Positions 24,730 through 29,386 of a stretch of DNA of 64,000 bases are shown here, piece after piece; position 1 is the first letter of the stretch; each line of letters begins with the position of its first letter. Both the position numbers and the translations under genes were made by a program. The notes below the pieces were generated by a model. That model saw only the letters and a program-made list of their open reading frames with translations. It was not told the DNA's origin and made no database searches. Origin of the DNA: Sphingomicrobium astaxanthinifaciens (GTDB taxonomy: Bacteria; Pseudomonadota; Alphaproteobacteria; Sphingomonadales; Sphingomonadaceae); contig NZ_JAKNYM010000002.1 of NCBI RefSeq assembly GCF_022865105.1, positions 777,501 to 841,500 on the forward strand, in the 5' to 3' direction.

Positions 24730-26028
24730 ATGCCGACCGAACTGAAGATGCCCGCGCTGTCGCCGACCATGGAGGAAGGCACGCTGGCCAAATGGCTGGT
24801 CAAGGAAGGCGATGCGATCAGTTCGGGCGACATCCTCGCCGAGATCGAGACCGACAAGGCGACGATGGAATTCGAGGCGGTCGACGAGGGCACGCTGCTC
24901 AAGATCCTCGTCGACGAGGGCACCGACGGGGTCGCGGTCGGCACCGTCATCGCGATGATCGGCGAGGAGGGCGAGGAAGTGGGCGAGGTCGAGGCTGCCG
25001 AACCCGAAGCGAAGAGCGCACCCGAGGCCGCACCCACCCCCGACAAGGGCTATGGCCGCGACAGCGCGCCCGAACCCGCGACCAAGGAAGTCCCCGCCGC
25101 GCCGCCTGCGCCGAAGAAGGATGGCGAACGGATCAAGGCGAGCCCGCTCGCGCGTCGGCTCGCCGAGGCGCAGGGCATCGACCTTGCCGCGCTGACCGGT
25201 TCGGGCCCGGGCGGCCGCATCGTGCGCGCCGACGTCGATGCCGCCGCGGGCAAGGCGCCCGCCAGCGCCGAGGCCGCCGCGCCCGCCGCCAGCGCGCCCG
25301 CACCGAGCGCCGCGCCCGCCGAGGTCGAACCGCTCGACATCCCGCACGCGGTCGAGAAGCTGTCGAACATGCGCAAGACGATCGCGCGCCGCCTGACCGA
25401 GGCCAAGCAGCAGATCCCGCACATCTACCTCACCGTCGATGTCCAGCTCGACGCGCTCTTGAAGCTGCGCAGCCAGCTCAACAAGAGCCTCGAGGATCGC
25501 GGCATCAAGCTCAGCGTCAACGACATGCTGATCAAGGCGCAGGCGCTCGCGCTCATCGAGGTGCCCGAGTGCAACGTGTCCTTCGCGGGCTCCAACCTCA
25601 TCAAGTACGAGCGCGCCGACATCTCGGTCGCGGTGTCGATCGACGGCGGGCTCATCACCCCGATCATCGAGAACGCCAACGAGCGCTCGCTGTCGTCGAT
25701 CTCGACGGGCATGAAGGAACTCGCCGGGCTCGCCAAGGAGGGCAAGCTGCAGCCGCACCAGTATCAGGGCGGCACCGCGAGCATCTCCAACATGGGGATG
25801 TTCGGGATCAAGGCGTTCGACGCGGTGATCAACCCGCCGCAGGCGATGATCCTCGCGGTCGGCGCGGGCGAGAAGCGTCCGCACATCATCGACGACAGCG
25901 TCCAGATCGCCACCATCATGAGCGCCACCGGCAGCTTCGACCACCGCGCCATCGACGGCGCCGACGGCGCCAAGTTCATGCAGGCGTTCAAGCGGCTGGT
26001 CGAGAATCCGATGGGGCTGGTGGCGTAA
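24730..26028 (+). CDS. pdhC: Pyruvate dehydrogenase E2, dihydrolipoamide acetyltransferase
   Basis: 432 residues. One lipoyl domain with Lys43 in [10 protein letters not shown], then an Ala-Pro-rich linker, the E1/E3-binding domain ([28 protein letters not shown]) at about 137-175, a second Ala-Pro linker, and the acyltransferase core ending in [12 protein letters not shown] (His405, Asp409). It transfers acetyl groups to CoA. The start is at the family Met; the frame upstream is only open. The E1 genes pdhA and pdhB are not in the window, but the E3 gene follows after three other genes. Confidence 0.96.
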
Positions 26029-26031
26029 AGG

Positions 26032-26598
26032 ATGCCAGAGGCCGCTTCTCGGCTGAGGTCTGCGAGAATCAAAGCGGGTTTCCAGTCGGCGAAGGACGCT
26101 GCATCGGCGGCGGGCGTGCCTCCGCCCACTTACTTTGGACATGAAAACGGAACGAGGGGCATCTCGGCCGAGAAGGCAGCCATTTACGCCGAACTTTTTG
26201 GGGTAACACCTCAATGGATCATGTTCGGTGAGGGGGGTGAAGTCCCCCTCATCCGCGTCACCGCCATGCCGGCGGACACCAACCCCTATGGCGGGATCTT
26301 CGGCGGCTGGCTGATGAGCCAGATGGCGCTCGCGGCGGGGTCGCTCGCCTCGCGGCACTCGAAGGGCAAGGCGGTGGTGGTGGCTGCCAACGAGCTGTCG
26401 TTCCCCGGCGCGATGGAGGTGGGGGACGAGCTCTCCGTCTATGCCGAGCTTCTCCAGGAAGGCACCACCTCGATGACCATCCGCGCCACCGCCAAGGGGC
26501 GCGAGCGCGACGGGGAGCGCGAGTTCGACGTCGCCAGCGGCACCTTCACCTTCGTCGCCACCACACCCGACAACCGCAAGCGCCCGGTCCGCGGCTGA
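26032..26598 (+). CDS. Fusion: XRE-type helix-turn-helix plus YciA-like acyl-CoA thioesterase
   Basis: 188 residues in one uninterrupted frame, starting 3 bases after pdhC stops. Residues 1-70 look like the small XRE/phage-repressor helix-turn-helix domain: RLRSARIKAGFQSAKDAA, a HENGTRGIS turn, YAELFGVTPQWIMFGEG. Residues 74-188 are a complete hot-dog acyl-CoA thioesterase of the YciA type, with the ADTNPYGGIFGGWLMSQM active-site stretch. By my count 28 of the first 71 codons end in A or T against 6 of the remaining 117, so the N-terminal part looks foreign. A thioesterase alone could start at the ATGs at 26221 or 26266. The fusion is seen; its function and expression as one protein are not shown. 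Confidence 0.75.
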   Translation: MPEAASRLRSARIKAGFQSAKDAASAAGVPPPTYFGHENGTRGISAEKAAIYAELFGVTPQWIMFGEGGEVPLIRVTAMPADTNPYGGIFGGWLMSQMALAAGSLASRHSKGKAVVVAANELSFPGAMEVGDELSVYAELLQEGTTSMTIRATAKGRERDGEREFDVASGTFTFVATTPDNRKRPVRG

Positions 26599-26635: not shown

Positions 26636-26685
26636 GTGCCATGGTGGCCGCGCTCCCGGGGGGCGGAGCGCGGGGGAGTGGCGTG

Positions 26686-27114
26686 ATGGGGCTGACATTG
26701 GCGCGGGTGGTGGTGAGCTTCGGCCTCTTCTGCGCCCCCTTCCTGCTCTACCTCGCGGCGAGCAGCACCCCCGAGGATGCGATGATCCTCATCTTCCCCT
26801 TCATCGGGGCGATCCCCGCGGTCGTCGGGGCGCTTGTCCTGTTCGTGCCCGCCGAGATGCTGCTCGACCGGCTGGGCCTGCCGGCGCTCAAGAACCTCGT
26901 CGTGCCGCTGATCGGGGCGAGCCTGTCGATCATCAGCGTCCTTGTCATCGGCGCCTGGACCGACAGCCTGGGGACGCTGGCGCGCAACGTGGCCCAGCAC
27001 GGCGCGATGTTCTGGGGAGCGCTGGGCGTGTGGGCGGTGCTCGGCGCGTTCTGGGGGCTGGTCTGGCGCAGCACCGAGTGGCTCGCGCGCAAGGCGGGGC
27101 TGGTCGCCAGGTGA
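26686..27114 (+). CDS. Small multi-pass membrane protein, unknown
   Basis: 142 residues from the ATG at 26686, chosen for the GGGGGAG nine bases before it; an ATG at 26641 adds 15 non-hydrophobic residues. About four membrane helices (near 3-24, 29-51, 62-85, 104-128). No family recognised. It overlaps the next membrane protein gene by GTGA, so the two are probably made together, between the E2/thioesterase genes and lpd. Confidence 0.65.
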   Translation: MGLTLARVVVSFGLFCAPFLLYLAASSTPEDAMILIFPFIGAIPAVVGALVLFVPAEMLLDRLGLPALKNLVVPLIGASLSIISVLVIGAWTDSLGTLARNVAQHGAMFWGALGVWAVLGAFWGLVWRSTEWLARKAGLVAR

Positions 27115-27905
27115 GCGGGCTCGAGATGGGCGAGATCGTCCCGCAGATCGCGGGCAGCGCGCTGGCAAGCGTGATCGTCGCCTACATGCTCGTCTATGGC
27201 ATCGGCGGGCTGGTCGGGAAAAAGGCTTTCTCGATGAACAGCGTGCACGAGGCGCTGCTGGGCACGACCATCCTGATCGGCATTCCCGCCAGCCTCGCCG
27301 CCTTCGCCTCGCTCTTCTTCCTCCCGGTGCTGCTCGCCATCCCGCTGCCCTTGTCGGGGTGGGCGATCGGCGCGGCGGTCGGGCTCGCCTGGTCGATCCT
27401 CGCCTTTCGCCACTCGGACGGGGGGATGGATGGCTGCACCAAGCTCTTCATGACGGGCGCATCGGGCTATCTCACCGCCATGGCCTGCTGGGCGATCGCG
27501 CTCGCCGACCCGCCCGCGGGCGATGTCGGCATGTTCATCAAGCCGATCCTGCTCGCCACCCCCTTCGCGGCGCTGGGGGCGCAGGGGAGGAAGGGCAATG
27601 GCGCGCGGGCCTTCCTGTTCGGCAGCTTCATGGCCTTCTTCCTCGCGCTCGGCTTCGTGCCGATCGAGATGGGGTTCGCCGATGCGATCCTGCCCGACAG
27701 CGCGTGGCTCAAGTTCCCGATCGGCGGGATGGTCGCCATGACCATCTGGATGATCGTGCCGCGCGCGCTGCTGACCGTCTGGGCGCTCGTCTTCAAGGTG
27801 AAGATGGACGAGTGGCGCGAATTCTTCTGGATCATCGGCCTCCTCGGGGTGACCGGGCTATTCTTCGGGCTGCTCTATGCGGCGCTGACGGTGCTCGGCC
27901 TCTAG
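27111..27905 (+). CDS. Multi-pass membrane protein, unknown
   Basis: 264 residues from the GTG at 27111, which overlaps the preceding stop; an ATG at 27126 is an alternative. About seven hydrophobic helices with small soluble loops and no recognisable active-site motif. Partner of the preceding protein by overlap. Lying 68 bases before lpd, it may be carried in the pdh transcript. No function can be assigned. Confidence 0.65.
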   Translation: MSGLEMGEIVPQIAGSALASVIVAYMLVYGIGGLVGKKAFSMNSVHEALLGTTILIGIPASLAAFASLFFLPVLLAIPLPLSGWAIGAAVGLAWSILAFRHSDGGMDGCTKLFMTGASGYLTAMACWAIALADPPAGDVGMFIKPILLATPFAALGAQGRKGNGARAFLFGSFMAFFLALGFVPIEMGFADAILPDSAWLKFPIGGMVAMTIWMIVPRALLTVWALVFKVKMDEWREFFWIIGLLGVTGLFFGLLYAALTVLGL

Positions 27906-27973: not shown

Positions 27974-29386
27974 GTGTCCAACGCTTACGATCTCATCGTC
28001 CTCGGCTCCGGCCCCGGCGGCTATGTCGCGGCGATCCGGGCGAGCCAGCTGGGGCTCAAGACCGCGATCGTCGAGCGCGAGAAGCTGGGCGGCATCTGCC
28101 TCAACTGGGGGTGCATCCCGACCAAGGCGCTGCTGCGCTCGGGCGAGATCTTCCACCACATGAAGCATGCGGAGAGCTTCGGGCTCAAGGCCGAGGGCGT
28201 GAGCATGGACCTCGACAAGGTGGTGGCGCGCAGCCGCGCGGTGGCCAAGCAATTGAACCAGGGCGTCACCGGGCTGATGAAGAAGAACAAGATCGACGTG
28301 CACATGGGCAACGGGTCGATCGATGCGCCCGGCAAGCTGACCGTCGAGAAGGACGGCAAGACAACGCAGCTCACCGCCAAGCATATTATCGTCGCCACCG
28401 GCGCGCGCGCGCGCGACCTGCCCTTCGCGCCTGCCGACGGCGACAAGATCTGGACCTATCGCACCGCCATGACCCCGCCCGCGATGCCCCAGGACCTGCT
28501 GGTCATCGGCTCGGGCGCGATCGGTATCGAGTTCGCGAGCTTCTACAACGACATGGGCGCCAACGTCACCGTGGTCGAGATGCTCGACCGCATCGTGCCG
28601 GTCGAGGACGCCGACATCTCGGCCGAACTGCACAAGCAGCTCAAGAAACAGGGCATGACGATCATGCCCAAGGCGGGGGTGCAGAGCCTCAAGGCCGACA
28701 AGAACGGCGTCACCGCCGAGATCAAGGACGACAAGGGCAAGGTCGAGAAGAAGCAGTTCTCGCACTGCATCGTCGCCATCGGCATCGTCCCCAACACCGA
28801 GAAGATCGGGCTCGAAAAGCTCAAGGTGAAGACCACCAAGGGGCATATCGACACCGACGAGATGTGCCGCACCAACGTGAAGGGCATCTGGGCGATCGGC
28901 GATGTCACCGCGCCGCCGTGGCTCGCGCACAAGGCCAGCCACGAGGGCATCATCGCGGTCGAGGCGATCGTCAGGGAAATGGGCAACAAGGAGGTCCACC
29001 CGCACGCGATGGACGTGCGCAATATCCCGGGCTGCACCTATTGCCACCCGCAGGTCGCCAGCGTCGGCCTGACCGAGGCCAAGGCCAAGGAAGCGGGGCA
29101 CAAGGTCAAGGTCGGCAAGTTCCCCTTCATCGGCAACGGCAAGGCGATCGCGCTGGGCGAGACGCAGGGCTTCATCAAGACCGTGTTCGACGCCGAGACG
29201 GGCGAATTGCTCGGCGCGCACATGATCGGCGCCGAGGTCACCGAGCTCATCCAGGGCTATACCATCGGCAAGACCGCCGAGCTGGTCGAGACCGACTTCA
29301 TCAACACCGTCTTCGCGCATCCGACGCTGTCCGAGATGATGCACGAGGCGGTGCTGTCGGCCGAGGGACGCGTCCTCCATATCTGA
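27974..29386 (+). CDS. lpd: Dihydrolipoyl dehydrogenase (E3) of the pyruvate dehydrogenase cluster
   Basis: 470 residues from a GTG with AAGGAG nine bases upstream. Complete: FAD motif VLGSGPGGYVAA, redox pair Cys42-Cys47 (GGICLNWGCIPTKA), NAD motif VIGSGAIGIEFAS, GIWAIGDVT, and the catalytic HPTLSE near the C-terminus. It reoxidises the lipoyl arm carried by PdhC, encoded about 2 kb upstream on the same strand. It is a different sequence from the E3 at the window start, so this genome has at least two. Confidence 0.96.
   Translation: MSNAYDLIVLGSGPGGYVAAIRASQLGLKTAIVEREKLGGICLNWGCIPTKALLRSGEIFHHMKHAESFGLKAEGVSMDLDKVVARSRAVAKQLNQGVTGLMKKNKIDVHMGNGSIDAPGKLTVEKDGKTTQLTAKHIIVATGARARDLPFAPADGDKIWTYRTAMTPPAMPQDLLVIGSGAIGIEFASFYNDMGANVTVVEMLDRIVPVEDADISAELHKQLKKQGMTIMPKAGVQSLKADKNGVTAEIKDDKGKVEKKQFSHCIVAIGIVPNTEKIGLEKLKVKTTKGHIDTDEMCRTNVKGIWAIGDVTAPPWLAHKASHEGIIAVEAIVREMGNKEVHPHAMDVRNIPGCTYCHPQVASVGLTEAKAKEAGHKVKVGKFPFIGNGKAIALGETQGFIKTVFDAETGELLGAHMIGAEVTELIQGYTIGKTAELVETDFINTVFAHPTLSEMMHEAVLSAEGRVLHI

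Follow-up and report, generated by a model that had tools for sequence, protein, structure and literature searches.

The window, by which we mean the whole stretch of 64,000 nucleotides that was analysed, contains an uninterrupted ORF of 188 codons (26032-26598, forward strand, ATG to TGA, 188 aa) that joins a helix-turn-helix (HTH) module of the XRE type to a hot-dog domain of the YciA type. Comparison with related loci shows, at the level of sequence, that HTH modules have been captured at this position repeatedly, with different heads, and that in ten of ten complete cases the capture took the form of an in-frame fusion. The hot-dog domain that carries these heads lacks the catalytic aspartate of YciA, and the fused protein may represent a regulator comparable in kind to FapR of Firmicutes.

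A fused ORF behind the E2 gene of pyruvate dehydrogenase

Both halves of the ORF were recognised by Pfam, with HTH_3 at residues 8-63 (E 1.4e-7) and 4HBT at residues 86-155 (E 3.3e-11), and the frame is open throughout, in agreement with the original prediction of an HTH and a hot-dog domain in one protein. The composition break that had been claimed at the joint was borne out as well. The hand counts of codons ending in A or T (28 of 71 in the HTH part and 6 of 117 in the rest) were exactly right and give a Fisher p of 5e-9, and the maximum per 71-codon stretch is 14 in the E2 gene and 7 in lpd.

The fusion ATG sits 3 nt past the stop codon of pdhC, which encodes E2 (Table 1), a spacing that makes translational coupling of the two genes likely. 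Two membrane-protein-like ORFs without a Pfam family lie between the fusion and lpd (26641-27905). An operator in its own promoter is a feature of FapR; here, no perfect inverted repeat with 6-bp arms was found in the 110 nt before E2 in seven genomes (four fused, three unfused), in a search for perfect repeats only.

Table 1 Features of the window around the fusion ORF
Feature	Position	Strand	Basis
pdhC, E2 component of pyruvate dehydrogenase	24730..26028	+	Lipoyl, E3-binding and 2-oxoacid_dh domains; Pfam PF00198 (E 9e-78), PF00364, PF02817
Hypervariable slot from E2 stop to hot-dog domain, HTH-filled here	26029..26244	+	Comparison of 126 loci
HTH module, codons 1-71	26032..26244	+	Fold of the XRE/Cro-C1 kind, as in phage repressors; third positions rich in A/T (28/71); Pfam HTH_3; phage HTH matches
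Hot-dog module resembling YciA, codons 72-188 with the stop codon	26245..26598	+	Pfam 4HBT; PDB sequence match 1yli/3bjk; best Foldseek matches 5dm5 and 3bjk
Codon 99, Ala where YciA has its catalytic Asp44	26326..26328	+	Aligned with Asp in 1yli and with Ala in 3bjk
Membrane-protein-like ORF (by eye)	26641..27114	+	Without Pfam family
Membrane-protein-like ORF (by eye)	27030..27905	+	No Pfam family, from a scan of 27102-27902
lpd, dihydrolipoamide dehydrogenase (E3)	27974..29386	+	Pfam Pyr_redox_2 (E 5e-67)

It had also been proposed that a short thioesterase could be made from an internal start. The window ORF does have an ATG at 26221, eight codons ahead of the hot-dog domain, and a short product from it is conceivable. 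The proposal is nevertheless weakened by the related fusions: in G017 and G311 the 20 codons ahead of the hot-dog contain no start codon, and the internal starts that the other fusions have show no conservation.

Capture and exchange of heads in related genomes

HTH-hot-dog fusions are also found at the same position in related genomes. Including that of the window (G000), ten are complete (G000, G029, G010, G035, G017, G099, G180, G311, G110 and G745), and an eleventh (G738) is partial, being cut by a contig end. Relative to the E2 stop, the first in-frame start of all ten complete fusions lies at -1 to +7 nt. The heads of G035 and G745 consist of two stacked HTHs. All heads match HTH_3 or HTH_31 in Pfam (nine fusions were scanned together and the tenth separately), and the families matched by the fusions (HTH_3, HTH_19 and HTH_31) are of the XRE type. 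A frameshift or a misassembly, which the original prediction had kept in view, or a chance open frame can practically be dismissed, since nothing was found in favour of it, ten genomes of several genera have the identical architecture, which rules out a local artefact, and G000 is a two-contig assembly with 100% completeness.

In the window's genus, 68 of 71 genomes have a match to the fusion protein, and the operon copy was fetched for 61 of these. A genus search (60 genomes, E<=1e-74) added the complete fusion of G745 and the partial one of G738. In the family outside the genus, 39 of the 68 matching genomes were fetched and the other 29 were judged from match start and open-frame length. 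The order and class samples were judged from the profile match, with 20 order loci fetched. In the class sample, a match at E<=1e-40 was obtained for 10 of 241 genomes. Three of these belong to the window's own family, and no HTH was seen in the other seven, as judged from profile matches that start at column 61 or later. Plasmid records matched in 103 cases, none covering more than 80% of the query. Divergent HTHs, or separate HTH genes in unfetched slots, could escape such a survey. Three duplicate loci were dropped from the locus set, and ten copies of genomes already present (L074-L080, L083, L085, L087) were omitted. In the genus of G311 (eight genomes), a single genome matches the fusion profile at E<=1e-50, namely G311, an HTH fusion.

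Comparison of 126 loci revealed that the head occupies a slot, bounded by the E2 stop and the hot-dog domain, whose content is hypervariable. Nine loci have HTH fusions, 81 have at least one other ORF, 34 are empty (<60 nt) and two have a gap without an ORF. An empty slot is also seen in G051, the sister of G017. The 86 unfused slot ORFs (plus-strand, at least 50 aa, picked by script, and excluding a 70-aa membrane-like ORF in the slot of L025) mostly have no Pfam family; DUF559 was found in four, SH3_3 in four and 4HBT in one, and none has an HTH at E<=0.01. By eye, many slot ORFs are unrelated, small and membrane-protein-like, often overlapping the E2 stop, and a 70-aa membrane-like protein (MKW-TALLLGAI...) is recurrent in the slots of the window's genus. 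The DUF559 ORFs, which are endonuclease-like, stand in the slots of L110, L113, L116 and L179, as seen by reading the ORFs. The slot was also considered as a defence island, and this was rejected, with PADLOC giving two weak matches among the 86 ORFs.

The slot of L020 (G027) holds, at gap positions 275-365 and between two unrelated slot genes, decayed copies of the beginning of the hot-dog and of the end of E2, the former joined to the latter. Both pieces score 43, compared to a maximum of 25 in 100 shuffles, and this is the sole trace of decayed flanks among the tested gaps of 150 nt or more. It looks as if a unit consisting of E2 end, gene and hot-dog start may have been inserted here via its flanks.

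A slot of this kind could take up any small A/T-rich gene, in which case the HTH would be an N-terminal extension without a role in DNA binding and only the hot-dog would matter. This would match the hypervariability of the slot, the other small ORFs in 81 of 126 loci, mostly without a Pfam family, and the fact that most genomes keep the hot-dog without an HTH. However, every HTH found is fused in frame with none standing separately among the 86 slot ORFs, the heads all belong to HTH_3/HTH_31, and in one pair of fusions (G099/G180) the HTH is under purifying selection. This is the sole closely related pair that shares a head; its HTH has a dN of 0.084 and a dS of 0.25 (Fisher p 0.0075 on rounded counts) and the respective values in the hot-dog are 0.024 and 0.39, i.e. 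the HTH is less constrained than the hot-dog. A mere passenger is thus a rather unlikely explanation of the heads.

A single ancient fusion inherited by all members is disfavoured by the tree, the AU test and the divergence of the HTHs. On a tree of E2 and hot-dog with 126 rows the fusions need seven changes, at least six of them forced by starred branches, and on a tree of 125 rows that includes G745 (L025 and L173, which have long branches, removed and L204 added; G738 in no tree) they need eight, at least five of them forced, with the limit that such a tree by itself cannot tell gains from losses. All fusions as one clade were rejected with a p-AU of 3e-82. The sisters G029 and G010 share 92.1% of their E2 DNA and 87.7% of their hot-dog DNA, yet at DNA level the likeness of their HTHs does not exceed that of shuffled sequence, with an alignment score of -142 against -138 for the best of 200 shuffles. 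G000 and G029 have a common HTH type, but the synonymous difference (pS) is 0.90 in the HTH versus 0.34 in the hot-dog, so that the two heads are separate imports. Identities among nine of the fusions are 18-57% for the HTHs, except for 83% in G099/G180, and 56-95% for the hot-dogs. In nine of nine fusions, A/T third positions are more frequent in the HTH than in its own hot-dog (p 0.006 to 3e-9), and in G745 they make up 61 of 150 codons in the HTH versus 20 of 120 in the hot-dog.

The divergence between sisters and the A/T-rich composition of the heads show repeated import and exchange. Likewise, the eight changes on the tree, the unrelated HTHs of sisters and the absence of HTHs among the 86 unfused ORFs show that HTHs were imported and kept repeatedly, in frame. 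That the HTH half is an import had been predicted from the window, and composition, a sister genome without an HTH (G001) and the likeness to phage repressors all agree with it. The comparison widens this picture, as capture was no single accident but recurs with different HTHs.

As to the source of the heads, searches against phage records were made with those of G000, G017, G099 and G110. The window HTH matches nine records at 41-50% identity, several annotated as repressor or S24, and the G017 head matches ten; at the limits used, there was no match for those of G099 and G110. A phage-like source is shown for some heads only. One cellular relative, L189, has HTH and Peptidase_S24 both over the Pfam cut-offs, and L093, 53% identical to the window HTH, has S24 just below the cut-off and no HTH match at E<=0.01; S24 is absent from L188 and L190 according to Pfam. 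The window HTH type was found in 4 of 149 family genomes sampled (E<=1e-6), its own included. S24/CI phage repressors have an N-terminal HTH of similar sequence and type but a C-terminal Peptidase_S24, in place of which the fusion has 4HBT.

Perhaps, captured phage-repressor heads serve in immunity or as decoys. The hot-dog oligomer would then replace the C-terminal dimerisation domain of CI/S24 repressors and the chimera would repress incoming temperate phages, CoA binding would be irrelevant, and the heads would turn over with the phages and could stack. The phage matches of the window HTH, several of them to repressors, those of the G017 HTH and the S24 repressor L189 speak for this, and the swaps between sisters and the stacked HTHs of G745 and G035 are easier to understand in an arms race than in a stable regulon. 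It is not reflected in the heads of G099 and G110, which lack phage matches within the limits applied, nor is there any convincing defence protein among the slot ORFs, and we regard immunity as possible but improbable.

The hot-dog domain and the catalytic aspartate

Ala99 of the fusion aligns (phmmer) with Asp44 of HI0827/YciA in 1yli and with the Ala of 3bjk, which according to its PDB title is the Asp44Ala mutant. Asp44 of YciA was identified as the catalytic residue by mutagenesis in the available part of PMC2698920, and its role is also described in that of PMC10560148. Across 125 distinct operon-linked loci this column holds Ala in 80, Gly in 38, Val in one and Asp in six, so that Asp is absent from 119 and kept only in L129-L132, L174 and L175. 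None of the ten complete fusions has it, although the domain is otherwise well conserved, and it is kept in a second YciA of the window genome (G000:C2:158681). The loss is common to HTH-free members and therefore probably predates the capture of heads.

Of the full YciA-type thioesterase that had been proposed for this half, the fold stands and the catalytic Asp does not. The best Foldseek matches in the PDB are the YciA-type hexamers 5dm5, 3bjk and 1yli, to which the domain is 32-37% identical in the fold alignments. The fusion differs from the acyl-CoA thioesterase YciA/HI0827 (TE6) in having Ala99 where that enzyme has the catalytic Asp44, and in its extra HTH. The NCBIfam equivalog model for YciA gives 73.5 bits versus a cut-off of 162. 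An ordinary active thioesterase is disfavoured by the Asp44 alignment, and the label 'thioesterase' appears doubtful for the hot-dog half. The same applies to the view that an HTH was spliced in front of a native thioesterase gene: the gene is indeed native to the pyruvate dehydrogenase operon, its naming as a thioesterase is what is in doubt.

Alternatively, the protein could still be an enzyme that hydrolyses via another residue, as the hot-dog may have a new catalytic one, or in a mixed oligomer with an Asp-bearing YciA paralog, the HTH only localising or regulating it. The conservation of the fold and of many residues would fit, and so would the slot of L176 (G408), where an Asp-bearing YciA stands immediately ahead of the Asp-less hot-dog. 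This tandem of an active-looking and a dead-looking domain recalls double-hot-dog enzymes such as ACOT7, in which, according to the available part of PMC2698920, the two hot-dog domains contribute Asn24 and Asp213. Given the mutagenesis of YciA Asp44 in the same source and the Ala, Gly or Val found in 119 of 125 loci, retained activity is nonetheless very improbable.

A possible regulator and its meaning for the family

We see about an even chance that the fusion is a chimeric DNA-binding protein of the FapR kind, in which an imported small repressor-type HTH would sit on a non-hydrolysing, CoA-ester-binding hot-dog oligomer. As its catalytic Asp is lost, the hot-dog most probably binds, without hydrolysing them, CoA esters from the adjacent pyruvate dehydrogenase and from fatty-acid metabolism. 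Hot-dogs of the YciA type assemble into dimers and into hexamers built as trimers of dimers, and the fusion would thus set its HTHs in two-fold pairs, as operators require. Ligand binding may then gate DNA binding, as it does in FapR. We infer the oligomer by analogy with the family, and likewise DNA binding, CoA-ester binding and gating. The original suggestion of a regulator set by acyl-CoA is favoured by the loss of Asp, its DNA binding and gating being predicted.

Against a FapR-like model, a long linker helix in the style of FapR is missing from the AlphaFold2 model, in a region of low confidence. The monomer model has a short helix at 60-65, coil and a strand at 74, with a pLDDT of 62-64 for residues 61-80. 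Overall the model (21 sequences) reaches a mean pLDDT of 78.8, with 42-81 in the HTH, 54-64 at residues 71-90 and 86-96 from residue 91 onward. A fixed metabolic regulon is a poor fit, because the heads are exchanged and the E2 promoter has no evident inverted repeat. In addition, most relatives have the hot-dog without an HTH, so its basic role would be something else.

The original prediction knew of no such combination, and as a wholly unknown one it does not hold up: in kind it is known from FapR and SpxR (available parts of PMC3536700 and PMC9888711). FapR is described in the parts of PMC516016 and PMC3536700 available to us as a malonyl-CoA-responsive repressor of Firmicutes with an N-terminal HTH and a C-terminal hot-dog without catalysis, and as of 2013 no other family with a non-enzymatic hot-dog was called well characterised (PMC3536700). 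The fusion likewise unites an HTH with a hot-dog that lacks the catalytic residue. FapR, however, has a DeoR-like HTH (PMC516016), whereas that of the fusion is of the XRE/Cro-C1 type and varies between sister species. FapR further has an amphipathic linker helix and, as far as the available text of PMC516016, PMC3536700 and PMC5052256 goes, was not found in Gram-negatives; the fusion comes from Sphingomonadales and carries its HTH on a hot-dog of the YciA type that is encoded in the operon for pyruvate dehydrogenase. The CBS-HotDog regulators SpxR/YtoI also combine HTH and hot-dog in one transcription factor, but contain DRTGG and tandem CBS domains (available part of PMC9888711), neither of which Pfam finds in the fusion. 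In the portions of the open-access PMC literature retrieved, we found no paper describing a YciA-type hot-dog with XRE heads, or the slot. The architecture is known in kind; what appears new within that literature is that the hot-dog is of the YciA type, that the heads are XRE, that the hosts belong to this group and, most of all, that heads are captured, exchanged and stacked repeatedly.

A broader reading, which we offer tentatively and with clearly less confidence than the FapR-like one, is that the conserved dead hot-dog is a platform onto which Sphingomonadales repeatedly load, swap and stack repressor heads, at least some of them phage-like. These would yield lineage-specific regulators or anti-phage immunity proteins, and new DNA-binding specificities would evolve as heads are exchanged while the body, which may sense acetyl-CoA, stays constant.

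New transcription factors are generally assumed to come from the joining of DNA-binding and sensor domains, and to our knowledge the act is seldom caught. Here, in a single bacterial family, a constant sensor-like body has been given unrelated heads on several occasions. As relatives show the slot empty, with one head, with a swapped head or with two heads, it becomes possible to test directly how a regulator is born, and also whether a dead metabolic enzyme can gate it. If true, non-enzymatic hot-dog regulators, described in Firmicutes in the sources available to us, would extend to Alphaproteobacteria.
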